Below, piece by piece: positions 47,774 through 64,000 of a DNA stretch of 64,000 nt. The stretch comes from Agrococcus jejuensis (GTDB taxonomy: Bacteria > Actinomycetota > Actinomycetes > Actinomycetales > Microbacteriaceae). The stretch lies in NCBI RefSeq assembly GCF_900099705.1, contig NZ_LT629695.1, forward strand, positions 3,162,001-3,226,000, given 5' to 3'. The number at the start of each line of letters is the position of its first letter. Position 1 is the stretch's first letter. A program made the position numbers and the translations under genes. The notes under the pieces were generated by a model, which saw only the letters and a list, made by a program, of their open reading frames with translations, ran no database searches and was not told the origin of the DNA.

Positions 47774-47797
47774 CCGCACCGCTTGCGAGCGGTGCGG
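47774..47797 (+). terminator. Terminator after rsfS
   Basis: A perfect 10-base-pair stem (CCGCACCGCT / AGCGGTGCGG) with TGCG loop and TTCTC after it. Its 3' half overlaps the -35 element of the next promoter. Confidence 0.8.
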
Positions 47798-47830
47798 TTC
47801 TCGGCTACCGTCGTGCTGTAAACGTTTCCA
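47783..47830 (+). promoter_or_regulatory. Promoter and LacI-type operator of the glycoside operon
   Basis: TTGCGA (47783-47788), 17 bases, TACCGT (47806-47811), then the operator TGTAAACGTTTCCA (47817-47830) with the palindromic core AAACGTTT characteristic of LacI-family sites. It sits on the transcript start, so the repressor encoded by the first gene would block its own operon. Confidence 0.82.
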
Positions 47831-47885
47831 GTTCGGTTGCAGATCGGACGGATGGAGACGCCGACGAGGTGCGAGGGAGCACGCG

Positions 47886-48875
47886 ATGGCCGAGGGATCG
47901 ACGCTCGCCGCCGTCGCCGCACGCGCAGGCGTCTCGATCGCCAGCGCCTCACGCGCCCTGAACGGCGGCATCGCCTCGACCTCGACGATCGCCCGCGTGC
48001 AGCAGGCCGCCGACGACCTCGGCTACCGGCCCAACCTCATGGCGCGCGGCCTGCAGTCGGGCCGCACCGGCCAGGTCGCGATGCTCGTGCCCGACGCCGC
48101 CAACCCCGTCTACGCGCGCATGATGAGCGCGCTGCAGTCCGAGCTCGACGCCCACGGCATCCGCCTGCTCATGCAGCAGGTGCCCGCGGCGCCCGTCGAC
48201 GCCGTCGCCGCGCTGAGCGCCGGGCTCGTCGACGGCGCGATCGTCGTGGCCCTGCGCGTCACCGACGACGTGGTCGCCGCCGTGCGCACCGCCGCCGTGC
48301 CCGTCGTCGTGCTCGGCCTCGTCGAGACGGCGGGCGTCGACAGCGTGCGCGCCGACTCCCACGCCGGCATGGGCCTGCTCGTCGACCACCTCGTCGCGCA
48401 GGGTGCGCGCCGCATCGGCCTCATCGTCGGCCCCGTCGACACGACCCCTGGTCGCACGCGCCTCGACGGCTTCGTCGCCGCGTGCGAGCGCCAGGGGATC
48501 GCGGCCGACCTCGTCGAGGTCGCCGACGACTTCACCCACGCCGCCGCGCGCCCGGCCGCTCGCGCGATGCTCGACGGCGGCGTGCCCGACGCCATCGTCG
48601 CCGCCAACGACGCCATGGCCCTCGCGACGCTGCGCGAGTGCGCGACCCGCGGCCTGCGCGTGCCGCACGACCTGCTGCTCGCCGGTCTCGACGACACCGA
48701 GCCCGCCGAGCTCTCGGTGCCGAGCCTCACGAGCATCGACCTCGGCGCCCACGACCGTGCCCGCATCGCCGCGCGCACGCTGCTGTCGCGCATCGACGGC
48801 GCCGCGCCGACCGGCCAGCAGGCCGTCGCGCCCCGCCTCGTCGTGCGCGAGTCGACCACGAAGGAGACCGCATGA
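47886..48875 (+). CDS. LacI-family transcriptional repressor, first gene of the operon
   Basis: 329 residues. The N-terminal helix-turn-helix and hinge (TLAAVAARAGVSIASASRALN; VQQAADDLGYRPNLMARGL) recognise AAACGTTT-type operators. A periplasmic-binding-protein-like sensor domain (about 62-325) follows with VPDAANPVYARMMSAL and VVANDAMAL-type contacts (seen as VAANDAMALATL). It is likely induced by the imported sugar or a product. It leads the operon and its stop overlaps the first permease gene (ATGA), so repressor and transporter levels are tied. Confidence 0.93.
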   Translation: MAEGSTLAAVAARAGVSIASASRALNGGIASTSTIARVQQAADDLGYRPNLMARGLQSGRTGQVAMLVPDAANPVYARMMSALQSELDAHGIRLLMQQVPAAPVDAVAALSAGLVDGAIVVALRVTDDVVAAVRTAAVPVVVLGLVETAGVDSVRADSHAGMGLLVDHLVAQGARRIGLIVGPVDTTPGRTRLDGFVAACERQGIAADLVEVADDFTHAAARPAARAMLDGGVPDAIVAANDAMALATLRECATRGLRVPHDLLLAGLDDTEPAELSVPSLTSIDLGAHDRARIAARTLLSRIDGAAPTGQQAVAPRLVVRESTTKETA

Positions 48876-49801
48876 CCGCCGTCGCCACGCGGCCGGAGGC
48901 ACCGACGCCTCCCCGGCCGCAGCGCCGAGGTCGTCGCGGGCGACAGGACTGGAGCGCCTACCTCCTGTTCGTGCCCGCGATGATCCCGATCCTCGCCTTC
49001 AGCGTGTACCCGCTGCTGCAGGGCATCCTGCTGGGCTTCACCGACTCGCAGTCGGGGCTCAACGCCGTCACCTCGTTCACGGGCATCGACAACTACGTGC
49101 GGCTGCTCGACTACGGGCTGTTCTGGCAGTCGTTCGGCATCGGCCTCATCTGGGCGTTCTCGGTCACGATCATCCAGTTCGTCGCCTCGCTGTGCCTTGC
49201 GCTGCTGCTCAACGCCAACCTCTGGGGCCAGGGGATCGCGCGCACGATCGCGCTCATCCCGTGGGCCATGCCGCCCGTGATCATCGCCATCATGTGGCGC
49301 TTCATGCTGCACCCCACCTACGGCGCCATCAACGGCGGCCTCGGCGCGCTCGGCCTGCCCGACGACACGAACTGGCTCGGCACGGCGCAGTGGGCGCTGC
49401 CCGCCGTCATCGTCGTGGGCGTCTGGGCGGGCATGCCGCAGACCACCATCACGCTGCTCGCGGGCCTGCAGGGCATCGACGACCAGCTGCACGAGGCCGC
49501 GCAGCTCGACGGCGCCGGCGTGTGGCAGCGGTTCTGGAACATCACCATCCCGGGCCTGCGTCCCGTGATCGTCGCGATCACGACGCTCGACTTCATCAAC
49601 AACTTCAACTCGTTCGCACTGGTCTACGTGCTCACGGCGGGCGCCTACGGCACGATGCTGCCGATGCTGTTCGCCTACAACGAGGCGTTCCGGTACGGCA
49701 ACTTCGGGCTCGCGAGCGCGATGGGCAACGTCATCGTCATCGTCATCGCGGCGTTCCTCTTCGTGTACCTCCGCGCGCAGGCGAAGGCGAGGACCGCATG
49801 A
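48872..49801 (+). CDS. Sugar ABC transporter permease (MalF/UgpA type)
   Basis: 309 residues, about six membrane helices with a basic N-terminal tail. The EAA loop that contacts the ATPase reads EAAQLDGAGVWQRFWNITIPGL. Together with the next permease it forms the channel of a CUT1-class importer. ATGA-coupled on both sides. No ATPase gene lies in the operon, so a shared MsiK-like ATPase encoded elsewhere is expected, as in other actinobacteria. Confidence 0.92.
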   Translation: MTAVATRPEAPTPPRPQRRGRRGRQDWSAYLLFVPAMIPILAFSVYPLLQGILLGFTDSQSGLNAVTSFTGIDNYVRLLDYGLFWQSFGIGLIWAFSVTIIQFVASLCLALLLNANLWGQGIARTIALIPWAMPPVIIAIMWRFMLHPTYGAINGGLGALGLPDDTNWLGTAQWALPAVIVVGVWAGMPQTTITLLAGLQGIDDQLHEAAQLDGAGVWQRFWNITIPGLRPVIVAITTLDFINNFNSFALVYVLTAGAYGTMLPMLFAYNEAFRYGNFGLASAMGNVIVIVIAAFLFVYLRAQAKARTA

Positions 49802-50628
49802 CCCGTCGTGTCTGGCGCGTGCTGCAGTACGTCGCCCTCGTGCTCTTCGTCGTCTTCCTCGGCTTCCCGCTGCTCTTCCTCGTCACGGCGGCGTTCAAGA
49901 CGCAGCAGGAGCTGCAGTCGCCCGACCCGCAGCTGCTGCCCGCGCAGTGGAACCTCGACAACTTCGTCGGCGCGATCGAGCGCGCCGGGCTCGGGCAGGC
50001 GGCGCTCAACAGCCTCGTCGTCGCCCTCGCCACGACGGTCATCGTCGTGCTCGTGGCGCTGCCGGCCGCCTACGCGCTCGCGCGGTTCCAGACGCGGCTG
50101 CGGGGGCTCGCGACGGGCTGGATCCTGCTGAGCCAGGTCTTCCCGTTCATCCTCATCATCATCCCGCTGTTCCTCATGCTGCGGCCGATCGGCCTCAACA
50201 ACACGCTCGCGGGGCTCGTCGTCGTGTACGTCGTCTGGTCGTTGCCGTTCGCGCTGTGGATGCTGCGCGGCTACGTCGCCGCCATCCCCGGCGAGCTCGA
50301 GGAGGCGGGCGCCATGGACGGCGCGTCGCGGTTCCGCGTGCTGCGGTCGATCATCATGCCGCTGCTCGGCCCCGGTCTCGTCGCCACGAGCCTCTTCGCC
50401 TTCATCGGGTCGTGGAACGAGTTCTTCTTCGCGCTCGTGCTCATCAAGGACGAGGCGCTGCAGACCCTGCCGCAGCGGCTCGCGCTCTTCGTGGGATCCG
50501 AGGGGCAGGTGGCGCTGGGGCAGCTCGCCGCCGGCAGCCTGCTCGCGTGCATCCCCTCGCTCGTCTTCTTCGCCATCATCCAACGTCGTCTCACGTCGGG
50601 CCTGCTCTCGGGCGCCGTCAAGGGATGA
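49798..50628 (+). CDS. Sugar ABC transporter permease (MalG/UgpE type)
   Basis: 276 residues, six membrane helices. EAA loop EEAGAMDGASRFRVLRSIIMPL. Partner of the preceding permease, with which it overlaps (ATGA). The conserved C-terminal half begins PFALWMLRGYVAAIPGELEEAG. Confidence 0.92.
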   Translation: MTRRVWRVLQYVALVLFVVFLGFPLLFLVTAAFKTQQELQSPDPQLLPAQWNLDNFVGAIERAGLGQAALNSLVVALATTVIVVLVALPAAYALARFQTRLRGLATGWILLSQVFPFILIIIPLFLMLRPIGLNNTLAGLVVVYVVWSLPFALWMLRGYVAAIPGELEEAGAMDGASRFRVLRSIIMPLLGPGLVATSLFAFIGSWNEFFFALVLIKDEALQTLPQRLALFVGSEGQVALGQLAAGSLLACIPSLVFFAIIQRRLTSGLLSGAVKG

Positions 50629-50651
50629 CCCCTCATCGAAAGCGGGACACC

Positions 50652-51944
50652 ATGCACCGTTCCATCCGCGCGATCGCAGGCATCGGCGCCTGCGCAGCGC
50701 TGCTCACCGGCTGCGCCTTCGGCGGCGGCGGCGCCACCGAGGCGACGACCGACCCCGACGAGGACGTCACGCTGACGTTCCAGTCGCTCGCGTTCCAGGA
50801 CGCGACCATCCAGGCCACGCAGGACATCGTCGACGCGTGGAACGCCGAGCACCCCGAGACGCAGGTCGACGTCGTGCAGGGCTCGTGGGACAACGTGCAC
50901 GACCAGCTCGTGACCCAGTTCCAGGGTGGCGAGGCGCCCGACATCATCCACAACGAGGCCTCCGACATGACGGGCTTCGCGCAGGACGGCTACCTCGCCG
51001 ACCTCTCGCCCTACCTCTCCGACGACGTCGTCGACTCGGTGGGCCAGGGCATCTGGGACTCCGTGAGCATCGGCGACGAGGTCTTCGCGGCCCCCACCGT
51101 CATGCAGTCGTACGTCGTCTTCGCGAACACGGCCGCCTTCGACGCCGCGGGCGTCGCAGTGCCGACGGGCGACGAGCTGTCGTGGGATGCGCTGCGCGAG
51201 ACCGCGCAGCAGCTCACGACCGACGGTGCCTTCGGCCTCGGCTGGGGCCTGCGGCAGCCGACGGCGCCGTTCATGAACCTCGCGCTCGGCTTCGACGGCA
51301 CGTTCTTCGACGTCGCCGACGACGGCAGCGCCACGATCGACGTGGGCGAGGGGGAGCTCGCCGTGCCCGAGGCCGTGCACGCCATGGCGTACGACGACGC
51401 GTCGCTCGACCCCATCACGCTCACGCAGTCGGGCGGCGACGTGCTGCCGGGCTTCCTCGGCGGCCAGTACGCCATGTACGTCGGCGGCTCGTACCTCGCG
51501 CAGCAGATCGCCGACTCGGCGCCCGAGGGCTTCGAGTGGACGGTGCTGCCGCCTCTCGCCGGGTCGAACGGCAGCGCGCAGGGCACGAGCCCGCAGACGC
51601 TCTCGGTGCCTGCGGAGTCCGAGCACGTCGATCGCGCCGCGGCGTTCATCGACTACTTCATGCAGGCCGACAACCTCGCCGCGATCGGCGAGGGCGACTG
51701 CCTCATCCCCGCGAGCGAGGCCGCGCGTGCCGAGCTCGAGACCGCGACGGAGGGGCAGACGGGCTGGGCCGAGATGCTCGCGTCGGGCGCGACGCTCGAG
51801 GCTGCGCCGTTCCAGCTCGCGGCGGACTACCCGCAGTGGAAGGACCAGTACGCGACGCCCGCGTTCCAGGAGTACCTCGCGGGCACCATCACGCTCGAGC
51901 AGCTCGAGCAGCGACTCGCGGACGGCTGGGACCAGGTCGGCTGA
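50652..51944 (+). CDS. Sugar ABC transporter substrate-binding lipoprotein
   Basis: 430 residues, family 1 solute-binding protein. The signal peptide ends in LTGC (lipidated C21). Typical landmarks: FQGGEAPDIIHNEASD, AAPTVMQSYVVFANTAAFDAAG, and the PQTLSVPAESEHVDRAAAFIDYF segment. Ligand-site residues cannot be assigned by eye. Placed after the permeases, 23 bases from the second, before the two glycohydrolase genes. Confidence 0.92.
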   Translation: MHRSIRAIAGIGACAALLTGCAFGGGGATEATTDPDEDVTLTFQSLAFQDATIQATQDIVDAWNAEHPETQVDVVQGSWDNVHDQLVTQFQGGEAPDIIHNEASDMTGFAQDGYLADLSPYLSDDVVDSVGQGIWDSVSIGDEVFAAPTVMQSYVVFANTAAFDAAGVAVPTGDELSWDALRETAQQLTTDGAFGLGWGLRQPTAPFMNLALGFDGTFFDVADDGSATIDVGEGELAVPEAVHAMAYDDASLDPITLTQSGGDVLPGFLGGQYAMYVGGSYLAQQIADSAPEGFEWTVLPPLAGSNGSAQGTSPQTLSVPAESEHVDRAAAFIDYFMQADNLAAIGEGDCLIPASEAARAELETATEGQTGWAEMLASGATLEAAPFQLAADYPQWKDQYATPAFQEYLAGTITLEQLEQRLADGWDQVG

Positions 51945-51991
51945 CCTGCCTGACGCATCCATCACGCACGACACGACAGGAGCAGGACGCA

Positions 51992-53140
51992 GTGGCACGA
52001 TCGATCGAGGACGCCGCGACGGGCGCGCTCGCAGGCTCGGCGGTGGGCGACGCCCTCGGCGGCGCCGCCGAGGGCAACACGCCGGAGGTCATCCAGGAGC
52101 GCTACGCCGGCACGATCGAGGGCATCGTGCCCCCGTTCCACGCCGACTGGCGCACCGCGAGGCCCATCGCGCCGTACCACAAGGGCGACGGGCACGTCAC
52201 CGACGACACCCTCATGACGAGCCTGCTCGTCGACGTGTACGCCGAGGTGCGCAGGCACCTCACGGCGCACGACGTCGCCGAGCACCTCGTGCCGCGCATG
52301 ATCGGCGAGGTGCGGTGGATCCCCGAGCTCGAGGCGGAGGCGCTGCCGCTGCAGCGCGTGTTCCTCGCCGAGAAGTGGCTCGTGGCACGCCTGCACTACG
52401 GCCACGTGGATCCGCGCGAGGCAGGCGTCGGCAACGTCGTGAACTGCGGCGCGACGATGTACGTCGCGCCCATCGGCCTCGTGAACGCCGGCGATCCGGC
52501 CGGGGCGTACGCGGAGGCGATCGACGTCGCCGGTGCGCACCAGTCGAGCTACGGCCGCGAGGCGGCGGGCGTGTTCGCCGCAGCGGTCGCGGCGGCGACG
52601 GTGCCGGGCGCGTCGGTCTCCGACGTCGTCGACGCCTCCCTCGCCCTCGCGAAGGACGGCACGCGCGCTGCGATCGAGGCGGTCGTCGACGCCGCGTCGC
52701 GGCTCGACGGCTGGCGCGACGGCGGCCTCGCGGTGCTGCGCGACGCCGTGCGCCCGTTCGACACCGTCGGCGACACGTACCGGCAGCCGGCGATGGATGC
52801 GCGGCTGCCGAGCCGCACGAAGGCCATCGAGGAGCTGCCGATCGCGTTCGGCATGCTCGTGGCGTGCGGCGGCGACTATCGCGAGGCCGTGCTGGGCGCC
52901 GTGAACTACGGCCGCGACTCCGACTCGATCGCCGTCATGGCCGGCTCGGTCGCAGGCGCGCTCGGCGGCGAGGATGCCGTGCCGGCCGAGTGGATCGACG
53001 CCGTGGGCGAGGCGTCGCGGCTCGACCTGCGGGCGCCCGGAGCCGTCATGGCCGAGGTGGCGCGCGAGGTGCTCGTCGCCGACGAGGCGCGGCTCGCGTC
53101 GCGTCGTACCGTGGCGGAGCGCCTCGGGATCGCCGCCTGA
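51992..53140 (+). CDS. ADP-ribosylglycohydrolase-family protein (first of two)
   Basis: 382 residues, DraG/ARH fold, all-helical. It binds two magnesium ions through TDDT (T70-D71-D72) and DSDS (D309-S310-D311-S312 in GRDSDSIAVMAGS), both intact. The family cleaves N- or O-glycosidic bonds to ribose; here its place in a sugar-import operon argues for a small-molecule substrate, not protein ADP-ribose. The GTG at 51992 has CAGGAG upstream. Its stop and the next ATG share one base (TGATG). Confidence 0.9.
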   Translation: MARSIEDAATGALAGSAVGDALGGAAEGNTPEVIQERYAGTIEGIVPPFHADWRTARPIAPYHKGDGHVTDDTLMTSLLVDVYAEVRRHLTAHDVAEHLVPRMIGEVRWIPELEAEALPLQRVFLAEKWLVARLHYGHVDPREAGVGNVVNCGATMYVAPIGLVNAGDPAGAYAEAIDVAGAHQSSYGREAAGVFAAAVAAATVPGASVSDVVDASLALAKDGTRAAIEAVVDAASRLDGWRDGGLAVLRDAVRPFDTVGDTYRQPAMDARLPSRTKAIEELPIAFGMLVACGGDYREAVLGAVNYGRDSDSIAVMAGSVAGALGGEDAVPAEWIDAVGEASRLDLRAPGAVMAEVAREVLVADEARLASRRTVAERLGIAA

Positions 53141-54486
53141 TGCTGCGGCTCACCTGGACGCAGCCCGAGGACCTCGCCGCCCACGCCCTCGCGGCCGCGC
53201 GACTCGACGGCGTCGACGTCGCCGACCTCGAGGCCGAGCTCGTCGCCGCGGGCGGCTCGCTCGAGGCCCCGGCGTCGGGGGCGACGCCGGAGCGCGGCTC
53301 GGACGCGCTGCGGGCCGTCGCGACGCGCGTGACGGCCGAGGCGTGCGCGCGGCCGCGACCGCGGGCGCTGCTCGACGCCGAGCCCGACGACTGGGAGGCG
53401 ATGGCGCTCGCGCCGGCATCGCTGCCCGTCGCACCGGGCCTCGACGACCGCCTGCGCGGCGCCTGGCTCGGCCGTGCGGTCGGCTGCCTCGTCGGCAAGC
53501 CCGTCGAGAAGATCCCGCGCGCCGGCATCCGCGCCATCGCCGAGGCGACGGGCCGCTGGCCCGTGCGCGGCTACTTCACCGAGGCGGGCCTGCCCGCCGA
53601 CGTCGCCGCGGCCTGGCCGTGGAATCGACGATCGCGACCCACGAGCCTCGACGGCGTCATCGACGGCATGCCCGAGGACGACGACCTGAACTTCGCCGTG
53701 CTCGCCCTCGTCGCGCAGGAGCGGCATGGCGACGCGCTCACGACCGACGACGTCGCACGCCTGTGGCTCGAGCAGCTGCCCGCCGGCCGCATCTTCACCG
53801 CCGAGCGCATCGCGCTGCGCAACCTGCTCGCGGGCGAGGAGCCCGACGTCGCCGGCGAGGTCGCGAACCCGTTCGTCGACTGGATCGGCGCGCTCATCCG
53901 CGCCGACGCGTACGGCTGGGCGCACGCGGGCGACCCCGCGACGGCCGCGCATCTCGCCGTCGTGGATGCGCGCCTCACGCACCGCCGCGCCGGCGTGCAC
54001 GGCGCCGCCTGCATGGCGGGCGCCGCCGCGGCGGCCGTCGCGGGTGCGACGCCCGCCGAGGCCATCGAGGCCGGGCTCGCGTGCGTGCCCGAGGGCTCGC
54101 GGCTCGCGGAGGCCGTGCGCCTCGGCCGCGACCTCGCCGCATCCGACCTCGACGACGAGGCCGCGATCGACGCGCTGCACGAACGGTACGGCCACCTGCA
54201 CTGGGTGCACGTGCTGCACAATGCCGCCGTCATCGCCTTCGCGGCGATCCGCGGCGCCGACGACCTCGGCCGCGCCGTGGGCCTCGCCGTCTCGGCGGGC
54301 TGGGACACCGACTCCGCCGGCGCCACCGTCGGCGGCCTCGTGGGGGCGCAGGGCACCGTTGCGATCCCCGCGCACCTCGCCGAGCCCATCCACGGCGTCT
54401 ACCGCACGACGCTCGCGGGCTTCGACGGCGTCGCGTTCGACGACCTCGCCGACCGCACGCTCGCGCTCGTGCAGGTGCCCGCATGA
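53140..54486 (+). CDS. ADP-ribosylglycohydrolase-family protein (second, divergent)
   Basis: 448 residues. An unusual ~95-residue N-terminal helical segment precedes the ARH fold, which starts at LDDRLRGAWLGRAVGCLVGKPVEK (core RGAWLGRAVGC). The first metal motif is EDDDLN (179-184) in place of TDDT; the second, DTDS (389-392), is standard. It differs enough from its neighbour that the two probably act on different bonds or substrates, or form a heteromer. Coupled at both ends (TGATG, ATGA). Confidence 0.88.
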   Translation: MLRLTWTQPEDLAAHALAAARLDGVDVADLEAELVAAGGSLEAPASGATPERGSDALRAVATRVTAEACARPRPRALLDAEPDDWEAMALAPASLPVAPGLDDRLRGAWLGRAVGCLVGKPVEKIPRAGIRAIAEATGRWPVRGYFTEAGLPADVAAAWPWNRRSRPTSLDGVIDGMPEDDDLNFAVLALVAQERHGDALTTDDVARLWLEQLPAGRIFTAERIALRNLLAGEEPDVAGEVANPFVDWIGALIRADAYGWAHAGDPATAAHLAVVDARLTHRRAGVHGAACMAGAAAAAVAGATPAEAIEAGLACVPEGSRLAEAVRLGRDLAASDLDDEAAIDALHERYGHLHWVHVLHNAAVIAFAAIRGADDLGRAVGLAVSAGWDTDSAGATVGGLVGAQGTVAIPAHLAEPIHGVYRTTLAGFDGVAFDDLADRTLALVQVPA

Positions 54487-56495
54487 CCGTGCAGCTCGCC
54501 GGCCACGACCCCGACGAGGCGGCCACGAACACGCTCGACCCGCTCGTGCCGCGGCCCATCGACCGCGCCACGATCGTGCCGGCCGACGGCGTCGTCGACG
54601 CCGCGACGTTCGACGTCGCGAAGATCCTCGCGGCTCCCGACGACCCCGCGGACTGGCCCGCGTGGCGCGACGCCATCCGTGCGCTCGCCGCCGACGCCCG
54701 CGAGCGCCTCGACCACGACGACGCCGCCTACGACGCCGTGCCGTGGGCCTCGCGCTGCCGCACGGCCGCGCAGATCTGGCTGTGGGACGAGCGCCTCTAC
54801 GACTGGCACGCGCGCCGCTTCACGCCCGATCGCCTGCTCGCCGCCTACGACGACGTCGGCGGGCTCGACGGCCTCGTGCTGTGGCACGCGTACCCGTGCA
54901 TCGGCATCGACGGCCGCAACCAGTTCGACTGGTACCGCGACGTGCCCGGGCTGCGCGAGCTCGTCGCCGACCTGCAGGCCCGCGGCGTGCGCGTGTTCGT
55001 CGACTACAACCCGTGGGACACGGGCACGCGCCGCGAGACGGATGCCGCCGGTCGCGCCCTGTCCGACGGCGAGGCGCTGCGCCGCACGGCCGACGCGCTG
55101 GGCGTCGACGGCGTCTTCCTCGACACGCTCAAGCACGCCGACGCGGACTTCCTGCGGTGGATGGGCGCGACCGACGAGCAGCGGCCGCTCGCGCTCGAGG
55201 GGGAGTCGCGTGCGCCGAACGAGCGCCTGCGCGACCACGTCGTGTCGTGGGCGCAGTGGTTCGCCGACTCCGAGGCCCCGGGCGTCATGCGCGCGCGGCT
55301 CGTCGAGCGGCGCCACATGCTGCACTCGGTGCGGCGCTGGAACCGGCAGCACGCCGAGGAGCTGCAGTCGAGCTGGATGAACGGCGTCGGCGTGCTCGTG
55401 TGGGATGCGGTGTTCGGCGTCTGGGTGGGCTGGAACGCCCGCGATCGCTCGACGCTGCGGCGCATGGCGCGCGTGCAGCGCGCTGCCCACGACGTGCTGG
55501 AGTCGGGGGAGTGGACGCCGCTCGCCGGTGCCACGTCCACTGCTGCGGCCGACGGCGTGTACGGCTCGACCTTCCGGCTCGGCGACGTGACGCTCGTCAC
55601 GCTCGTGAACCGTGCCGACGTCGATGGGGAGGGCGCGTACCTCGCGCCGGAGCTCGCGGGCCCCATCGGAACGGACGCCGCCGCCGCGTGGGACGTCACC
55701 GCCGGCACGCGCCTCGACGGCACGACCGTGCGCATCCCCGCGCACGGCATCGCCGGCGTCGTCGTCGTGCACGGCGACGAGCCCGCGTGGCTCGCGCCGC
55801 TCGTCGCCGCCGCGGCCGCGGATCCGCACGAGGCCGACGCGACGTTCCCGGCACGCGACGCGGCGCTCGTGCCGCACGCGCGCTCGACCGGAGCAGCGCC
55901 GGCCGACGCCATCCGCATCCGCCCCGGCACGCGCACGCACACGATCGAGTGGCGACGTCGCGAGACGGGGCTCGAGGGCGAGGCGCCGTACGTCGAGGAG
56001 TGGAAGCCGCTGCCGCCGCGCCTGCACGACGTGCAGCGGCACGAGCGCACCGTCACGCTCGGCGCCGTCGCCGTCGCGGCGCAGCCCGTGACGGCCGGCG
56101 AGCTCGCCGACTGGCGCGGCGAGCCTGCGCCCGCCGAACCGCACGCGGCCGCGACGCGCATCGACCTCGATGAGGCCCGCGCCTTCGCCCGCGATCGCGG
56201 CGCCCGACTGCCGACCGACGCCGAGTGGCGCGAGGCTGCGGCCGACGCGACGTTCGCGCGCCCCGCGCCGAGCCCGTGGGAGTGGACGGAGACCGAGCGC
56301 ACCGACGGCGTGACGCGGCGCGTGCTGCTCGTCGGCGGCAGCGGCGTCGTCGTGGAGGGCTCCGACTGGTACGCCGACGGCGGCCCCCAGCCGCCCGAGC
56401 GCGTGCTGTCGTGGCTGCGCACGGGGCTCGACCGCTCCGACGCCATCGGGCTGCGGCTCGCCTGGGATCTGCCGACAGAGGAGACGATCCGATGA
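54483..56495 (+). CDS. Barrel-type glycosidase-like protein fused to a formylglycine-enzyme-like domain
   Basis: 670 residues, two parts. Residues about 85-400 look like a (beta/alpha)8 glycosidase barrel, with D214 in GVFLDTLKHAD and E239 in LALEGES at the ends of successive strands, possible catalytic residues. Residues about 490-670 resemble the FGE/SUMF1 fold (LPTDAEW at 576-582, PWEWTETER, SDWYADGG, GLRLAWD). That domain has no cysteine at all, so it cannot be a copper/Cys formylglycine-generating enzyme and may instead bind ligand. I recognise no named family for the whole. Coupled to the second ARH gene and to the CoA-transferase gene by ATGA overlaps. Confidence 0.75.
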   Translation: MTVQLAGHDPDEAATNTLDPLVPRPIDRATIVPADGVVDAATFDVAKILAAPDDPADWPAWRDAIRALAADARERLDHDDAAYDAVPWASRCRTAAQIWLWDERLYDWHARRFTPDRLLAAYDDVGGLDGLVLWHAYPCIGIDGRNQFDWYRDVPGLRELVADLQARGVRVFVDYNPWDTGTRRETDAAGRALSDGEALRRTADALGVDGVFLDTLKHADADFLRWMGATDEQRPLALEGESRAPNERLRDHVVSWAQWFADSEAPGVMRARLVERRHMLHSVRRWNRQHAEELQSSWMNGVGVLVWDAVFGVWVGWNARDRSTLRRMARVQRAAHDVLESGEWTPLAGATSTAAADGVYGSTFRLGDVTLVTLVNRADVDGEGAYLAPELAGPIGTDAAAAWDVTAGTRLDGTTVRIPAHGIAGVVVVHGDEPAWLAPLVAAAAADPHEADATFPARDAALVPHARSTGAAPADAIRIRPGTRTHTIEWRRRETGLEGEAPYVEEWKPLPPRLHDVQRHERTVTLGAVAVAAQPVTAGELADWRGEPAPAEPHAAATRIDLDEARAFARDRGARLPTDAEWREAAADATFARPAPSPWEWTETERTDGVTRRVLLVGGSGVVVEGSDWYADGGPQPPERVLSWLRTGLDRSDAIGLRLAWDLPTEETIR

Positions 56496-57679
56496 CCGGT
56501 CCGCTCGACGGCGTGCGCGTCCTCGACGCGTCGACGCTCTTCGCCGGCCCGCTGGCCGCGACGTTCCTCGGCGACTTCGGCGCCGACGTGACGAAGATCG
56601 AGCATCCGCGCCGCCCTGACGCCGCTCGCGGCCACGGGCAGGCGAAGGACGGCGTGAACCTGTGGTGGAAGACGCTCGGCCGCAACAAGCGCGCCGCGAC
56701 GATCGACCTGTCGAGCGACGACGGCGGCGACCTGCTCGTCGACCTCGCGACCGATGCCGACGTGCTCATCGAGAACTTCCGGCCCGGCACGCTCGAGCGC
56801 TGGGGCATCGGTCCCGAGCGGCTGCTCGAGGCCAACCCGCGCCTCGTCATCGCCCGCGTCACGGCGTTCGGGCAGACGGGTCCGCTCGCGAGGCAGCCCG
56901 GGTTCGGCTCGATCGCCGAGGCCATGAGCGGCTTCGCGGCGCTCACGGGCGACCCCGACGGCCCGCCCATCCTGCCGCCGTTCGGGCTCGCCGACGGCAT
57001 CACGGCCCTCGCGACCGCGTACGCGTGCAGCATCGCCCTGCGGCATGCGGAGCGCACGGGCGAGGGGCAGGTGATCGACATGGCGATCATCGAGCCCATC
57101 CTCATGCTGCTCGGCGGCGGCATCACCGCCTACGACCAGCTGGGCTACCTGCAGCCGCGCACCGGAAACCGCTCGGTGAACAACGCGCCCCGCAACGTCT
57201 ACCGCACGCGCGACGGACGCTGGGTGGCGGTGTCGACGTCGTCGCAGTCGATCGCCGAGCGCGTCATGACGCTCGTCGGCCGCCCCGACGTCGTCGCCGA
57301 GCCGTGGTTCGCGACGGGGCGGGAGCGCGCGGCGCACGGCGACGAGCTCGACGCCGCCGTGGGCGCGTGGATCGCCGAGCGCGATCTCGCGGAGGTCGAG
57401 GCGGCCTTCGCGCGCGTCGAGGCGGCGATCGGCGTCGTCGACGACGTCGCGGGCGTCATGGCGAACCCGCAGTACGACGCGCTCGGCACGATCCTCGAGA
57501 TCGACGACGACGAGCTGGGCCGCATGCGCATGCAGAACGTGCTCTTCCGGCTGTCGGCGACGCCCGGGGCCGTGCGGCACACGGGCAGGCAGCACGGCGC
57601 CGACACCGCCGCGGTGCTCGCCGAGGTGGGCGTGACGCCCGAGCAGCTCGCGGCGCTGCGTGCGCGGGGCGTCGCATGA
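56492..57679 (+). CDS. CaiB/BaiF family class III CoA-transferase
   Basis: 395 residues, complete. The proposed catalytic Asp is D168 in FGLADGITAL, at the position of D169 in formyl-CoA transferase. IENFRPGTLERWGI and GEGQVIDMAI are family landmarks. Enzymes of this class move CoA between carboxylic acids such as succinate, mesaconate, citramalate or itaconate. Being followed by a CitE-like lyase, it probably activates a hydroxy- or methyl-dicarboxylic acid in this pathway. ATGA-coupled at both ends. Confidence 0.9.
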   Translation: MTGPLDGVRVLDASTLFAGPLAATFLGDFGADVTKIEHPRRPDAARGHGQAKDGVNLWWKTLGRNKRAATIDLSSDDGGDLLVDLATDADVLIENFRPGTLERWGIGPERLLEANPRLVIARVTAFGQTGPLARQPGFGSIAEAMSGFAALTGDPDGPPILPPFGLADGITALATAYACSIALRHAERTGEGQVIDMAIIEPILMLLGGGITAYDQLGYLQPRTGNRSVNNAPRNVYRTRDGRWVAVSTSSQSIAERVMTLVGRPDVVAEPWFATGRERAAHGDELDAAVGAWIAERDLAEVEAAFARVEAAIGVVDDVAGVMANPQYDALGTILEIDDDELGRMRMQNVLFRLSATPGAVRHTGRQHGADTAAVLAEVGVTPEQLAALRARGVA

Positions 57680-58479
57680 CCGTCGCGCTGTACGTGCCCG
57701 GCGACCGCGCCGACCGCTTCGCGAAGGCCGTCGCGACGGGTGCCGACGTCGTGATCCTCGACCTCGAGGACGCCGTCGCCGCCGACGCCAAGGATGCGGC
57801 GCGCTCTGCCGTGGACGCCTGGTTGCGCGAGCACGGCCCCACGGGCCTGCAGGTGCGCGTCTCGGCGGGCTCGAGCGAGGACCTCGCGATGCTCGCGCGC
57901 CACGACGTGGCGGTACGGCTGCCGAAGGTGCGCGGTGCCGCCGACGTCGACGCCGTCGTCGACCGGCTCGATCGGTCCAGGCGCTTCGTCCACGCGCTCG
58001 TCGAGGACGCGGCAGGGCTCTCGGCGCTCGACGAGATCGCACGGCACCCCGCGGTCGCGTCGCTCGCGATCGGCGAGGCCGACCTGCGCGCCGACCTCGG
58101 CGCGACGAGTCCCGCGATGCTGCAGCACGCGCGCATCCTGCTCGTCGTCGCAGCGCGCGCCGCGGGGCTGCCGGCGCCGCTCATGGCCGCCTACCCCGAC
58201 ATCCGCGACTTCGACGGGCTTGCGGCCGACTGCCGCGCAGGCGCTGCGCTGGGCTTCGGCGGGCGCACGGCGATCCACCCGAGCCAGGTCGACCGCATCC
58301 GCGCCGCGTTCGCGCCGACCGACGCCGAGGTCGCGTGGGCGCGCGACACCCTCGCCGCCCTCGGCGACGCGGGCGTCGCGACGCTCGCCGACGGGCAGAT
58401 GGTCGACGAGGCGATGGCGCGCCGCGCCCGTGCGACGCTCGCCCGGCTTCCCAGGGACGAGCGCACAGCAGACGGATAG
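57676..58479 (+). CDS. CitE-like (HpcH/HpaI aldolase family) acyl-CoA lyase
   Basis: 267 residues, TIM barrel. VVILDLEDAVA opens the active site, VEDAAGLSALDEIA and GEADLRADLG supply the metal-binding Glu and Asp, and FGGRTAIHPSQVDRI is the CoA-side signature. This family cleaves citryl-, malyl-, methylmalyl- or citramalyl-CoA to an acyl-CoA and a keto acid. It is stand-alone (no citC/D/F), so citrate lyase is excluded; the substrate is open. Last clearly catalytic gene of the operon. Confidence 0.9.
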   Translation: MTVALYVPGDRADRFAKAVATGADVVILDLEDAVAADAKDAARSAVDAWLREHGPTGLQVRVSAGSSEDLAMLARHDVAVRLPKVRGAADVDAVVDRLDRSRRFVHALVEDAAGLSALDEIARHPAVASLAIGEADLRADLGATSPAMLQHARILLVVAARAAGLPAPLMAAYPDIRDFDGLAADCRAGAALGFGGRTAIHPSQVDRIRAAFAPTDAEVAWARDTLAALGDAGVATLADGQMVDEAMARRARATLARLPRDERTADG

Positions 58480-58488
58480 CATGCGGCC

Positions 58489-59160
58489 ATGAGTGCCGCA
58501 CGCGTCACGCGTCCCAAGCGTCCCCGGCCGCGTCTCACCCTCAAGGTCGTGCTGCTGCTCGTCGCGATCGCCGTGCTCATGCCGGCCGTGACGGCGCTCG
58601 GCTCCTGGATCGCGACCCTCTACGCCGGCCCCGACGGCCTGCTGCAGACGTACCAGTTCCAGCTCTGCCGCCGCGGGAGCTGCCTCGGCGACGGCATCCA
58701 GCGCGGGCCGTCCGAGGTCGCGACCGCCGGCGCGATCCTGGGCCTGCCGTGGATGGTCGCCGCCGTCGGTCTCGGGCTGTCGCTGCTGCTGCGTCGGCGC
58801 GGCTGGATGACGATCCCGCTCACGATCGTGCACGTGCTGTTCGCGCTGACGATGTGGAACCAGATCGCCTACGCGATGGCGGGCGGCGCCTGGTGGGGCC
58901 AGATCATCCTCGTCGTGTTCCTGCTCGGCCTGCCGCTGGCGATGCTCGGCCTCGGCGAGCTCGCGATCCCCGTGCACCGCAAGCCCAAGGCGCGCACGCC
59001 CGAGCGGGTCGCGCTCGCGCAGTCGGATGTCGCGCTGGCCGCGCAGGCGAGCCGCGGCCCCGCGTGGCAGCCGCCGCCCGCCGCCGATCCGCGCCTCGCA
59101 GGCCTCGGCACGCTCGCGCAGTCGTACCCGAAGGTCGAGGCGCAGCGTGTCGGAGGCTAG
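58489..59160 (+). CDS. Membrane protein of unknown function
   Basis: 223 residues with four predicted membrane helices (about 18-42, 78-98, 105-123, 130-152), a loop carrying a close Cys pair (QLCRRGSCLGDG), and a long cytosolic C-terminus. It starts 9 bases after the CitE-like gene but has no sequence link to the pathway; it may be co-transcribed by position only. Four bases separate it from the convergent VOC gene. Confidence 0.7.
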   Translation: MSAARVTRPKRPRPRLTLKVVLLLVAIAVLMPAVTALGSWIATLYAGPDGLLQTYQFQLCRRGSCLGDGIQRGPSEVATAGAILGLPWMVAAVGLGLSLLLRRRGWMTIPLTIVHVLFALTMWNQIAYAMAGGAWWGQIILVVFLLGLPLAMLGLGELAIPVHRKPKARTPERVALAQSDVALAAQASRGPAWQPPPAADPRLAGLGTLAQSYPKVEAQRVGG

Positions 59161-59164
59161 CCCC

Positions 59165-60013
59165 TCAGCTGAGGCGGATGCGGTTGCCCCACGGGTCGTC
59201 GAACGACAGCGTGCGGCCGTCGTCGGCCGTCTGCACCCCGCGCGCCGTGAGGCGTTCGCGCGCCGCGCCCAGGCCGTCCGCGCCCGGTACGACGATGTCG
59301 ACGAGGCCGAGGCCCAGCGTGTTGGCGCGGCGACCCGCGCCGGCCGAGTTCCACGTGTTCATCGCCATGTGGTGGTGGTAGCCGCCCGCGCTCACGAACA
59401 CGGCCTGCGCGCCGTACGCCGCGGTCTCGGCGAAGCCGAGCGCATCCACGTAGAACTGGCGCGCCGTCGTCACGTCGCCCACCTGCAGGTGCACGTGGCC
59501 GACCGTCGCACCGGTGGGCGTGCCGGTCGCATCGCCCGAGCCGAGGTGCTGCGCCACGAACGCGCTGGGGTCGAAGCCCTCGGTCGTCATGTGCACGCGG
59601 TCGCCCTGCCACTGCCACGCCGAGCGCGGGCGGTCGACGTACAGCTCGACGCCGTTGCCGTCGGGGTCGACGAAGTAGAACGCCTGCGACACGTGGTGGT
59701 CGCCGACGCCGGCGAAGACCATGCCGGGGATCTGCGTCATGCGCACGACGGCGGCGGCGAGCGACGTGTGGTCGGGGTAGAGCACGGCCGTGTGGAAGAG
59801 GCCCGCGTCCTGCGGGTTCGGGCCGCGCAGGTCGGGGGCGGCCTCGAGGCGCACGAGCGTGCGGCCGTCGACGCCGAGCTCGACGACGCCGGGCGACTCG
59901 GCGACCTGCACGAGGCCGGGGCCGGCCTGGTACCAGCGCTCGAGGCGCGCGAGGTCGGCGGTGCGGAGGGTCACGGGACCCATGTGGGTCGCGTCGGGCA
60001 GCAGATCGTTCAC
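59165..60013 (-). CDS. VOC-superfamily two-domain protein (catechol 2,3-dioxygenase / CatE-like)
   Basis: 282 residues with two vicinal-oxygen-chelate domains (about 8-130 and 160-282). Candidate metal ligands are a His in VGDHHVSQAFYFVDPDGNGVELY with its Glu, and His in GHVHLQVGD. CatE-type enzymes open catechol rings, but many relatives have other or no known activity. It lies 49 bases past prpC on the same strand, so it may be read from the prp transcript. The GTG start at 60013 lacks a clear ribosome site; an ATG at 59983 is the alternative. Confidence 0.78.
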   Translation of the reverse strand: MNDLLPDATHMGPVTLRTADLARLERWYQAGPGLVQVAESPGVVELGVDGRTLVRLEAAPDLRGPNPQDAGLFHTAVLYPDHTSLAAAVVRMTQIPGMVFAGVGDHHVSQAFYFVDPDGNGVELYVDRPRSAWQWQGDRVHMTTEGFDPSAFVAQHLGSGDATGTPTGATVGHVHLQVGDVTTARQFYVDALGFAETAAYGAQAVFVSAGGYHHHMAMNTWNSAGAGRRANTLGLGLVDIVVPGADGLGAARERLTARGVQTADDGRTLSFDDPWGNRIRLS

Positions 60014-60062: not shown

Positions 60063-61187
60063 CTACGCGTCGACGCCCGGCACGTGCCGCTCGTCGGGCC
60101 CGTCGTACGCCGAGAGCGGGCGGATGAGCGCGTTCGAGGCCGCCTGCTCCATCACGTGCGCCGTCCATCCCGTGATGCGCGATGCCACGAACAGCGGCGT
60201 GAACGTGGGGGTGTCGAAGCCCATGAGGCGGTACGCGGGGCCCGAGGGGTAGTCGAGGTTGGGGTGGATGCCCTTGCGCGCGACGAACTCGCGCTCGAGC
60301 TCCTCGTAGAGCGCGAGCATGTCCTGCGCGCCGTAGTGCTCGACGAGCTGGTCGAGCGCGGCGCGCATCGTGGGCACGCGCGAGTCCCCGTGCTTGTAGA
60401 CGCGGTGGCCGAAGCCCATGATCTTGCGCTTCTCGGCGAGCGCCGCATCCAGCCAGCCCGACACCTTCGACGCGTCGCCGATCTCGTCGAACAGGTGCAT
60501 GACGGCCTCGTTCGCGCCGCCGTGCAGCGCGCCCTTGAGCGCGCCGATGGCACCGACGACCGCCGAGTACAGGTCGGACGTCGTCGACGTGATGACGCGC
60601 GCCGTGAACGTGGAGGCGTTGAACGAGTGCTCGGCGTAGAGCACCATCGAGCGGCGGAACGCGTCGACGACGATCGCGTCGGGCTCCTCGCCGAACGTCA
60701 TCCAGAGGAAGTTCGCCGAGAAGTCGAGGTCGTCGCGCGGCGCGACGATGTCCTGGCCGCGGCGGCGGCGCTGGTCGTACGCGACCATCGCCGGGATGCG
60801 CGCGAGCAGGCGCACGGACTTGTCGAGGTCCGACGTGGGCGATGCGTCGTTCGCATCGGGGTCGTTCGCGCCCGTCGCCGAGACGGCGGTGCGCAGCACG
60901 TCCATGGGATGCGCCGTGTCGGGGGAGCGGTCGATGAGCTCGCGCGTGAGCGGGTCGAGCGCGCGGTCGCCGCGCTCCTGCTGCATGAGCGCGTCGAGCT
61001 CGGACTCGGTGGGCAGCTCGCCGTGCCACAGCAGGTGCGCGACGGCCTCGAACGACTGGGTGTCGGCGAGCTCCTGCACGGGGTAGCCGCGGTAGAGCAG
61101 GCTGTTCGTGTCGGGGTTGACCTTCGAGATCGCCGTCGTGTCGACGACGACGCCCGCGAGGCCCTTCTTGATGTCCTGGTCGGTCAT
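60063..61187 (-). CDS. prpC: 2-methylcitrate synthase
   Basis: 374 residues, citrate-synthase fold: LHGGANEAVM and GFGHRVYKHGDSR carry the two active-site His, and the catalytic Asp is near the C-terminus (GPAYRLMGFDTPTFTPLF region). Short form typical of PrpC. Position after prpD and prpB assigns it to condense propionyl-CoA with oxaloacetate. GAAGGAGC precedes the ATG at 61187. Confidence 0.92.
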   Translation of the reverse strand: MTDQDIKKGLAGVVVDTTAISKVNPDTNSLLYRGYPVQELADTQSFEAVAHLLWHGELPTESELDALMQQERGDRALDPLTRELIDRSPDTAHPMDVLRTAVSATGANDPDANDASPTSDLDKSVRLLARIPAMVAYDQRRRRGQDIVAPRDDLDFSANFLWMTFGEEPDAIVVDAFRRSMVLYAEHSFNASTFTARVITSTTSDLYSAVVGAIGALKGALHGGANEAVMHLFDEIGDASKVSGWLDAALAEKRKIMGFGHRVYKHGDSRVPTMRAALDQLVEHYGAQDMLALYEELEREFVARKGIHPNLDYPSGPAYRLMGFDTPTFTPLFVASRITGWTAHVMEQAASNALIRPLSAYDGPDERHVPGVDA

Positions 61188-61212
61188 GCTGGCTCCTTCG
61201 CCTCGGTGCTGC

Positions 61213-62133
61213 TCAGTCCTCGGTGCGCGCGGGGTCTCCGGGCACCTGGAAGTCGAACACGCCCGCGTCGAACGACGCGTACGCCTCGTAGTCGTTGAGC
61301 TCGTAGAGCCTGGCCCGAGTCTGCATCGTCGGCACCTGGCTCGCCAGGGATCCCTCGTCGACGAGCGCGTCGAGCGCGCGCTCGATCGCGCCGAACGCGA
61401 CGCGCAGCAGCGACACCGGGTGGATGACCATGCTCACGCCGACGCTCTCGAGCTGCTGCGCCGTCCACAGCGGGCTCTTGCCGAACTCGGTCATGTTGGC
61501 GAGGATCGGCACGTCGACGGCGGCCCGGATCGCGGCGAACTCGTCGAGCGAGGCCATGGCCTCGGGGAAGATCGCGTCGGCGCCCGCATCCTGCAGCGCC
61601 TTCGCACGGTCGACCGCCGCGTCGAGACCGTCGACGCCGCGCACGTCGGTGCGCGCCATGATGACGAGGCCGGGGTCGCGGCGGGCGGCGACGGCGGCGG
61701 CGATGCGCTGCGTCGCGGTGGCGAGCGACACGACCTCCTTGCCGTCGAGGTGCCCGCACCGCTTGGGGTTCACCTGGTCCTCGATGTGCAGGCCCGCGAC
61801 GCCCGCATCCTCGAGCTCGTGGATGGTGCGGGCGACGTTCATCGGCTCGCCGAAGCCCGTGTCGGCGTCGACGAGCACGGGCAGCGACGTCTGCCTCGCG
61901 ACCTGGTGGGCGCGCTGCGCGACCTCGGTGAGCGTCGTCAGCCCGATGTCGGGCAGGCCGAGCTCGGCGGCCATGACCGCGCCAGACAGGTAGACGCCCT
62001 CGAAGCCCTTCTGCTCGATCAGCGCCGTCGAGAGCGGCGTGAACGCGCCGGGGAAGCGCTGGATGCGCCCCGACGCGAGCCCGAGGCGGAACGCCTGCCG
62101 CTTCGCGCGGGCGTCGATGGGGGAGGAGAGCAC
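61213..62133 (-). CDS. prpB: 2-methylisocitrate lyase
   Basis: 306 residues, isocitrate-lyase superfamily barrel. The catalytic Cys lies in KRCGHLDGKEVV; VDADTGFGEP holds magnesium-binding Asp residues. It splits methylisocitrate to pyruvate and succinate. The GTG at 62133 overlaps the prpD stop by one base (TAGTG). prpC starts 25 bases after its stop. Confidence 0.95.
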   Translation of the reverse strand: MLSSPIDARAKRQAFRLGLASGRIQRFPGAFTPLSTALIEQKGFEGVYLSGAVMAAELGLPDIGLTTLTEVAQRAHQVARQTSLPVLVDADTGFGEPMNVARTIHELEDAGVAGLHIEDQVNPKRCGHLDGKEVVSLATATQRIAAAVAARRDPGLVIMARTDVRGVDGLDAAVDRAKALQDAGADAIFPEAMASLDEFAAIRAAVDVPILANMTEFGKSPLWTAQQLESVGVSMVIHPVSLLRVAFGAIERALDALVDEGSLASQVPTMQTRARLYELNDYEAYASFDAGVFDFQVPGDPARTED

Positions 62134-63641
62134 TAGAACAGTCCCTGCGTCGTGTCCGGCACGATGAGCCCACTCGGCGCGACGACGTTGAGCGACCGCA
62201 CCTCGTCGGCGCTGAGCTCGGGCAGGCGCTCGGCGAGGCCGATGAAGCGGGCGAGCTCGGCGGGGTCGATGACGCCGTCGGCGAGCGTGTGCAGCTTCTC
62301 GAGGTACTGCGCCCGAGCGAACGGGCGCGCGCCGGCGGGGTGCGCGTCGGCGACGGCGATCTCGTCGACGATGCGCTCGCCGCTCGCGAGCTCGATCTCG
62401 ATGCGGCCGCCGAACGCCTTCACGTCGGGGTCGGGGTCGTGGTAGCGCGCGGTCCACACGGGGTCCTCGACGGTCGTGACCTTCTGCCACAGCGCGACGG
62501 TGTCGGGGCGACCGGCGCGCTCGGGCGCGTACGAGTCGACGTGGTGCCAGCCGCCGTCCTGCAGCGCGACCGTGACGATGTACGGGATCGAGTGGTCGAG
62601 CGTCTCGCGGCTCGCCGTCGGGTCGTACTTCTGCGGGTCGTTGGCGCCCGAGCCGATGACGTAGTGCGTGTGGTGGCTCGTGTGCAGCACGATCGACGCG
62701 ACGTTCGCCGGGTCGCGCAGCTCGGGGCGCTCGGTGCCGAGGCGGCGGGCGAGGTCGATCCACGCCTGCGCCTGGTACTCGGCCGAGTGCTCCTTCGTGT
62801 ATGTGTCGAGGATCGCGCGCTTGGGCTCGCCCGCGACGGGCAGCGGCACCTCGTAGCGCGCGTCCCAGCCGCCGAGCAGCCACGGGATGACGCCGTCCTC
62901 GCCCTCGTAGATCGGCGTGGGGCTCGTCTGGCCGCGCATCGCACGGTCGACGGCCTCGACGGCCATCTTGCCCGCGAACGCGGGCGCGTGCGCCTTCCAC
63001 GTCGAGATCTCGCCCTTGCGCGACTGCCGGGTCGCCGTGGTCGTGTGCAGCGCCTGGCCGACGGCCTGGAAGATCGTCTCGCGGTCGAGGCCGAGCAGCG
63101 TGCCGATGCCCGCGGCGGCCGAGGGGCCGAGGTGCGCGACGTGGTCGATCTTGTGCTCGTGCAGGCAGATGGCGCGCACGAGGTCGACCTGGATCTCGTA
63201 GCCCGTCGCGATGCCGCGCACGAGCGCCGCACCGTCGGCACCCGTGTGCTGCGCGACGGCGAGGATCGGCGGGATGTTGTCGCCGGGGTGCGAGTAGTCG
63301 GCGGCGAGGAACGTGTCGTGGAAGTCGAGCTCGCGCACGGCGACGCCGTTCGCCCACGCCGCCCACTCGGGGCTCACGCGGTCATCGATGCCGAAGACGG
63401 CTGCTCCCGGTCCGAAGGGGTGTCGCTGCGCCTGCTCGCGCGCCGCCGTGACGGGGGCGCGCGTGAGGCTCGCGATCGCGACCGATGCGTTGTCGAGCAC
63501 GCGGTTCACGATCATCTCGGTGACGTCGGCGTCGACGGCGACGGGGTCGGCGGCGACCTCGGCGATGCGCCACGCGAGCTGCTGCTCGCGGGGCAGGTGC
63601 TCGGCGCTGCGATGGGCTCGGAGGTTGTGGAGCTCGGTCAT
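62133..63641 (-). CDS. prpD: 2-methylcitrate dehydratase PrpD
   Basis: 502 residues, MmgE/PrpD family. Landmarks: [21 protein letters not shown] (substrate His/Asp site), [11 protein letters not shown] and [16 protein letters not shown]. It dehydrates 2-methylcitrate. The ATG at 63641 overlaps the stop of the upstream regulator gene (ATGA), so the whole prp set is one transcript on the minus strand. Confidence 0.94.
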
Positions 63642-64000
63642 CGGATCCTCTCGGGCGTGCGGTCGGTCGTGGCGGGCGCGAGCGTGCGCTCGATGCTCGC
63701 CAGGGCGTGGTGCAGGTGCACGTGGGTCGCGTGCGCTGCGAGGTCGGGGTCGCCGGCGGCGATGGCGCGGGCGATGAGCGCATGCTCGCCCGCCGAGGCG
63801 CGCAGGCGCTCGGGCCGGTCGCTCGCGAGGCGGCGCACGCGGCCGAGGTGCGCGCGCACGGGCTGCAGCGAGCGGGCGAGGAAGTCGTTCGCGACGCACG
63901 CCTCGATCGCGGCGTCGAGCTCGGCGACGCGCGCGTAGTAGGCGGCGACGTCGTCGGTGGCGTCGGCGCGCTCGAACGCCGCCGCGAGGGCGGGGAAGGG
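63638..64000 (-). CDS. GntR-family regulator, FCD domain (partial)
   Basis: The gene runs off the window; 120 C-terminal residues are visible. They form an FCD (FadR C-terminal) ligand domain: [13 protein letters not shown], then [30 protein letters not shown], with the conserved His pair that binds metal and carboxylate effectors. The DNA-binding end lies beyond 64000. Overlap with prpD (ATGA) makes it the likely propionate/methylcitrate-responsive regulator of this operon. Confidence 0.85.

Follow-up and report, generated by a model that had tools for sequence, protein, structure and literature searches.

A nine-gene, LacI-led operon of Agrococcus jejuensis, conserved among actinobacteria, joins genes for a sugar importer and ARH-fold proteins to genes for a CoA-transferase and a CitE-like lyase

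The 3.40-Mb genome of Agrococcus jejuensis is represented by a single contig, and the stretch analyzed here (the window) comprises 64,000 nucleotides of it, at positions 3162001-3226000. Between positions 47886 and 58479 of the window lies a run of nine plus-strand genes joined by overlaps of 1-4 bases or by gaps of 23 and 47 bases. The run opens with a LacI-family regulator (47886-48875; PF00356, 34.2 bits; PF13377, 127.2 bits), followed by two permeases of a CUT1-type ABC transporter (48872-49801 and 49798-50628; PF00528, 79.4 and 66.5 bits, respectively), with ATGA overlaps at the LacI/permease 1 (48872-48875) and permease 1/permease 2 (49798-49801) junctions. A sugar-binding protein (SBP; 50652-51944; PF01547, 126.2 bits), probably a lipoprotein as judged by eye, begins 23 bases after permease 2. 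Next, after the 47-base gap, come the ARH/DraG-family protein ARH1 (51992-53140; PF03747, 170.4 bits), whose GTG start at 51992 is uncertain in position, and ARH2 (53140-54486; PF03747, 152.3 bits), an ARH-fold protein with ~97 extra N-terminal residues; the two genes share one base, at 53140, within a TGATG junction. The last three genes, each entered through an ATGA overlap (54483-54486, 56492-56495, and 57676-57679), are gene 7 (54483-56495), with a GH13-like barrel (residues ~62-433) assigned from a structure model and a C-terminal FGE/SUMF1-like domain (PF03781, 23.6 bits), a class III CoA-transferase (56492-57679; PF02515, 374.6 bits), and a CitE-like acyl-CoA lyase (57676-58479; PF03328, 94.1 bits). 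The Pfam families of the set are thus LacI, two BPD permeases, SBP_bac_1, two ADP_ribosyl_GH, FGE-sulfatase, CoA_transf_3, and HpcH_HpaI. An NCBIfam scan placed none of the nine proteins above the cut-off of an equivalog model (judged for the permeases from the full list or the best 25 matches), and the nearest models to the LacI protein, UriR and RbsR, were both under cut-off. The SBP_bac_1 protein and two BPD permeases, with an ATPase in trans, agree with the CUT1-type import proposed in the initial annotation of this DNA; one MalK-type ATPase (OB_MalK match) is encoded elsewhere in the genome and may serve the importer.

Ahead of the regulator, at 47817-47830, lies a near-palindrome, TGTAAACGTTTCCA, which is a putative LacI-type operator. 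At one mismatch or fewer, this site occurs at only two places in the genome, the second being a perfect palindrome, TGGAAACGTTTCCA, at 1761818-1761831 of the contig (L088), near the end of one open reading frame (ORF) and directly ahead of the next. Across related loci, a loose core of the site, picked after the upstream regions had been inspected, was found within the 130 bases ahead of LacI in all 68 loci tested, as compared with 4 of 408 equally long control stretches taken inside LacI. With every gene in place, the expected Pfam families, and the junctions read from the sequence, the earlier claim of nine genes in a row behind one LacI operator was borne out.

To follow the block through other genomes, a gene 7 profile was used, which found 337 encoding stretches in genome contigs; the best 80 were retained as loci, and 67 of these had enough flanking DNA to show the whole block. 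All nine genes, in identical order and strand, were present in 65 of the 67. This sample was picked by gene 7 and is biased by design, so that it says nothing of how common the block is. Separation of the blocks among relatives had been named beforehand as grounds for abandoning the reading of a single unit, and the nine-gene form held. The two exceptions were L038, in which the best LacI match lies between ARH2 and gene 7, and a Nocardiopsis locus (L041), which keeps the permeases, SBP, ARH2, and gene 7 and has no LacI, ARH1, CoA-transferase, or lyase. The outer flanks vary between genera, and the block reaches another class, Acidimicrobiia, in Desertimonas (L060). CoA-transferase and ARH1 are, by eye, among its best-conserved proteins. 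Fusions were also found, of gene 7 with the ribokinase-type kinase of relatives (P0074) and of gene 7 with ARH2 (P0034 and P0072), as were two further ARH-FGE pairings by Pfam among the proteins listed. The nine genes are one unit, and the gene set is real. In six Kribbella loci (L059, L066, L067, L078, L085, and L087), a minus-strand gene pair lies between ARH1 and ARH2; in the one tested (L078), the pair encodes a PhoD-like phosphatase and an F5/8 type C protein.

Within Agrococcus, ARH1 was detected (E <= 1e-60) in 6 of 24 genomes, A. jejuensis included. In each of these six, the block lies after rsfS, and a convergent glyoxalase-like gene follows it in five; in the sixth (L180) none was seen within the 3.4 kb available (L008 and L182 are one contig, as are L009 and L179, and each contig was counted once). 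Twelve of the 18 block-less genomes were examined at rsfS, and the glyoxalase gene was ~70 to 830 bases after it in eight; the short sequences obtained from the other four did not show it. Since the glyoxalase gene follows rsfS directly in these eight block-less genomes, the block is a discrete insert in Agrococcus, gained or lost whole.

In the window, the lyase gene is followed after 9 bases by a gene for a 223-residue protein (58489-59160), by eye a membrane protein, which the initial annotation had considered a possible tenth member. Its product has no Pfam or NCBIfam match, and no relative was found in the 80 gene 7 loci (E <= 1e-10) or at the other Agrococcus loci (E <= 1e-8); it was therefore excluded from the operon. 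The glyoxalase-like gene (59165-60013) comes next, and beyond it prpC, prpB (identified by eye), and prpD of the 2-methylcitrate cycle occupy 60063-63899 on the minus strand, convergent to the operon. This arrangement is the same in three of the six block-bearing Agrococcus genomes. Propionyl-CoA, suggested as a pathway product by the adjacent methylcitrate genes, was dropped because these genes adjoin the block in only three of the six carriers, within the stretches fetched.

Both ARH proteins score far above the PF03747 cut-off of 26.2 bits. In ARH1, T70-D-D-T73, D309, and D311 are each conserved in 97% or more of 93 sequences, that of the window included, and the conserved acidic residues of ARH1 and ARH2, which we take to be the two-metal motifs of ARH/DraG, are kept in both. 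The two-metal site of ARH enzymes holds a cis-diol furanose. The structure model of ARH2 has the ARH/DraG fold, which together with the acidic motifs it has in common with the (ADP-ribosyl)hydrolases ARH3 and DraG; over the aligned fold, identity to these is 17-20%, and ARH2 differs from them in its N-terminal extension and its catabolic gene context. Sequence matches of ARH1 to solved ARH/DraG chains were weak and lay mostly over its last 60 residues.

A search with ARH2 matched 55 of 296 genomes of the class (E <= 1e-12), and 20 places were fetched by hand, 19 of them high-scoring (at least 352 bits) and one weaker (L145). ARH1, ARH2, CoA-transferase, and lyase genes occur together in all 19 high-scoring regions and not in L145, while gene 7 is present in eight of the 20 (L126, L128-L132, L135, and L138). 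Two extra ARH genes lie between the SBP gene and ARH1 in L126-L133 and L135-L137 and after ARH2 in L134, where the CoA-transferase and lyase genes stand ahead of LacI; L138 has no extra ARH genes. Because some lineages have no gene 7 or transporter beside the enzymes, ARH1, ARH2, CoA-transferase, and lyase look like the core of the system. In L145 and in 6 of 16 further regions (L164, L165, L166, L169, L170, and L171), the surroundings of more distant ARH2 relatives include CUT1 permeases, LacI-type regulators, or ribokinase genes; the ARH match in L170 and L171 is weak, at 25-27%. In six of the eight regions L156-L163, a more distant ARH2 relative (38-42% identity) was observed near a different kind of CitE-like gene (31-33% identity), a setting that by eye is probably an ethylmalonyl-CoA region.

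The core also occurs in a genus (g8; L139-L144) that we take, from this locus, to be Streptomyces. Here, ARH1 was found (E <= 1e-60) in 73 of 101 genomes, the search centre included, and the six regions examined carry four ARH genes, the CoA-transferase, and the lyase, with a kinase in four of them. In L139, the enzymes are followed by lgt, one unnamed gene, trpA, trpB, a small ORF, and trpC; the other five regions share these neighbours by clustering, with the trpC cluster in five of the six. Six predicted genes (CoA-transferase, lyase, lgt, the unnamed gene, trpA, and trpB) thus separate the ARH genes from the small ORF before trpC. In S. coelicolor, SCO2038 is trpX of trpCXBA (PMC5036795), and counting back from the small ORF of L139 as SCO2038/trpX fits a lyase at SCO2033, a CoA-transferase at SCO2032, and ARH genes at SCO2031-SCO2028; the link comes from counting genes with a simple gene caller rather than from sequence comparison, and only the kinase-less arrangement of two of the six regions fits it. 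SCO2028, SCO2029, SCO2030, and SCO2031 appear in print as putative ADP-ribosylation hydrolases. They belong to a list of eight S. coelicolor DraG/ARH homologues given as uncharacterised in PMC9411070, and three of the four are also listed in PMC5087735. The mention of SCO2028 in the available part of PMC5036795 is a primer name in the cloning of trpM and carries no information on the ARH gene. The SCO2028-SCO2033-type locus shares with the Agrococcus block the succession of ARH genes, CoA-transferase, and lyase, and differs in having no LacI, transporter, or gene 7 beside the enzymes. Permease-permease-SBP sets related to the block's transporter (SBP, 41-44%) do occur in the genus (L172-L177). 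The SBP relative, which 6 of 10 genomes carry apart from the enzymes, has nothing that ties it to the pathway and was set aside because no ARH match was found in the six permease-permease-SBP stretches fetched.

Gene 7 combines two parts. Its model has the barrel fold of the GH13 superfamily; no GH13 family profile recognized it, PF03781 being the only Pfam match to the protein at E <= 0.001. Of the Asp-Glu-Asp catalytic triad of GH13, candidates for the first two members, D214 and E239/E241, occur in 43 of 43 sequences, and no clear Asp was found at strand 7, which instead has the invariant residues H278 and H281. Gene 7 differs from the GH13 alpha-amylase superfamily in its Pfam profile and in its FGE-like fusion, and the usual third Asp was not found. 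At the C-terminus, PF03781 scored just over its cut-off of 23.3 bits in the window protein and reached 65.6 bits in L041. The active-site cysteine pair of FGE was not found in the window protein, which has Cys only at positions 92 and 139; in 43 sequences no column of the FGE-like domain has a majority of Cys, and 23 of the 43 have at least two Cys somewhere in the domain. Since the window protein has no cysteines in this domain, an FGE- or EgtB-type activity was rejected. A gene 7 search of 296 genomes of the phylum matched seven, of which only the window's own matched in full and the other six over the FGE stretch alone.

The CoA-transferase has the PF02515 domain and the conserved Asp of class III, and D168, which we presume to be the catalytic Asp, is conserved in 97% or more of 95 sequences. 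For the lyase, 85 sequences were compared, and R61, E110, and D136 each recur in at least 97% of them. Among the named models and solved structures closest to the two enzymes are, for the CoA-transferase, class III succinyl-CoA transferases (mesaconate and hydroxymethylglutarate [HMG]/glutarate) and, for the lyase, RipC, the citramalyl-CoA lyase of the itaconate pathway. RipC was the best NCBIfam model for the lyase, at 164.9 bits against an equivalog cut-off of 375. The block differs from these systems in scoring well under the equivalog cut-offs and in having no hydratase gene in its kept part. CitE-like lyases split beta-hydroxyacyl-CoA, and since RipC is the best model, though far under cut-off, a citramalate-like compound is our first guess for the acid. 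In Promicromonospora panici (L072, 14150-14935), a PEP_mutase-family gene (PF13714) shares a few bases with the end of the lyase gene.

Two optional genes accompany the block in relatives. In 60 of 76 loci, ARH2 and gene 7 are separated by a ribokinase-type PfkB gene, whose family was assigned from one example (L053), for which ribokinase models were best by a wide margin, with 259.6 bits to TIGR02152 against an equivalog cut-off of 299.65. A. jejuensis has a ribokinase-like gene elsewhere in its genome that scores just under the same cut-off (292.7 bits). Downstream of the lyase, 17 of 75 loci have an esterase of the PF00756 type; an earlier clustering by predicted genes had given 18, one without a lyase in view. 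The spacing between the lyase and esterase-type genes is -3 bases in L019, 0 in L026, and 22 in L021, with gene ends taken from a simple gene caller; by eye, the esterases of L019 and L026 have no signal peptide. In L032, a stretch of beta-propeller repeats accompanies the esterase. The esterase was dropped as a general part of the pathway, given its presence in 17 of 75 loci only. Together, the ribokinase-type gene and the esterase of relatives point to a riboside carrying an acid.

The block looks like a sugar-conjugate catabolic operon, unusual in that its key hydrolases come from a family named for another job. On balance, we favor the reading that it is a LacI-controlled unit for the catabolism of a pentofuranosyl, probably ribosyl, conjugate bearing an acid, and we infer the following order of steps. 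The CUT1 transporter, powered by the shared ATPase encoded elsewhere, would import a glycoside or short oligomer, and ARH1, ARH2, and the gene 7 barrel would cut its glycosidic bonds inside the cell, with the two-metal site of the ARH-fold enzymes binding a pentofuranose, most likely ribose, by its cis-diol. The ribose set free could then be converted to ribose-5-phosphate by the ribokinase-type enzyme, encoded in the operon of many relatives and elsewhere in Agrococcus. The remaining part would be a beta-hydroxy carboxylic acid, for example citramalate or an alkylmalate, or would yield one once an ester is cleaved; the CoA-transferase would activate this acid and the CitE-like lyase would split it into an acyl-CoA and a 2-oxo acid, so that sugar and acid would both enter central metabolism. 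The initial annotation had suggested a glycoside, perhaps a ribosyl conjugate, feeding acyl-CoA chemistry. The part in which CoA transfer and a lyase act on an acid is supported; the combined reading stands in part, its ribosyl component being made likelier by the ribokinase-type gene in 60 of the 76 loci. It had also placed the gene set in no described pathway, and none matching was found in the literature searched, most subscription papers lying outside the search. PMC13389410, in its available text, concerns ribazole only and has no bearing on the block. Nucleosides, cobamide ribazole, methanopterin, malate- and HMG-conjugates, and apiosides were considered as substrates, and none is supported by our results.

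Several observations weigh against this proposal. The kinase is absent from the Agrococcus operon and from 16 of 76 loci in all, and the kinases scored fall under the equivalog cut-off, as do the CoA-transferase and lyase under those of every equivalog model. The esterase occurs at few loci, and a search made without a positive control found no relative of it in the A. jejuensis genome. Gene 7 is missing from 5 of the 12 regions L126-L137 and from all six Streptomyces-type regions, none of which has a LacI or transporter beside the enzymes in the 19 kb seen; 28 of the 101 genomes of that genus gave no ARH1 at the threshold used. In addition, 10 of the 16 further ARH2-relative regions showed no sugar-transport or kinase neighbour by search.

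Some of these points could also indicate that the sugar is another cis-diol furanose, such as apiose, on which the ribokinase-type gene acts or which is handled elsewhere: PfkB kinases vary in substrate, many of the host genera are plant- or soil-associated, and the sub-cut-off score of the L053 kinase and the 16 kinase-less loci would fit. The wide margin by which ribokinase models fit that kinase, together with a kept block that has no isomerase or dehydrogenase for another pentose, makes this rather unlikely. It is improbable that shared regulation is all that ties the CoA-transferase and lyase to the sugar genes, the acid on which they act being unrelated. The Nocardiopsis locus, with its sugar genes and no acyl-CoA genes, and L134, with the latter ahead of LacI, are consistent with such independence; against it, the two genes stay with ARH1 and ARH2 in six of six Streptomyces-type regions where LacI, transporter, and gene 7 do not stand beside them, and the CoA-transferase and ARH1 are both, by eye, among the best-conserved proteins of the block. 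That the ARH proteins are true (ADP-ribosyl)hydrolases reversing ADP-ribosylation, merely sited in a sugar operon, seems very doubtful given their linkage to CUT1 permeases, CoA-transferase, lyase, and often a ribokinase-type gene, the runs of two to four consecutive ARH genes, and the inactivity of SCO2028 and SCO2030 on U-alpha-ADPr, a single substrate beside which others are possible (PMC13036486).

Among the closest known systems is also yegTUV of E. coli, an operon that encodes a transporter together with a putative ADP-ribosylglycohydrolase and a putative kinase of sugars (PMC10819704); it differs in its nucleoside-type transporter of the major facilitator superfamily and GntR-family regulator, and none of its genes encodes a CoA-transferase, lyase, or barrel. 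Bacterial ARH/DraG homologues are often taken as part of ADP-ribosylation signalling, and here ARH genes belong to a conserved catabolic cluster. Tentatively, and with somewhat less than even confidence, we propose that the block represents an undescribed and widespread actinobacterial route for the degradation of a ribosyl-hydroxyacid conjugate, that an ARH clade including the four consecutive homologues SCO2028-SCO2031 consists of catabolic furanosidases and not of ADP-ribosylation erasers, and that gene 7 founds a glycosidase family with a C-terminal FGE-fold domain. If true, this would name a carbon source with a dedicated operon in many soil actinobacteria and could give a new family of glycosidases.

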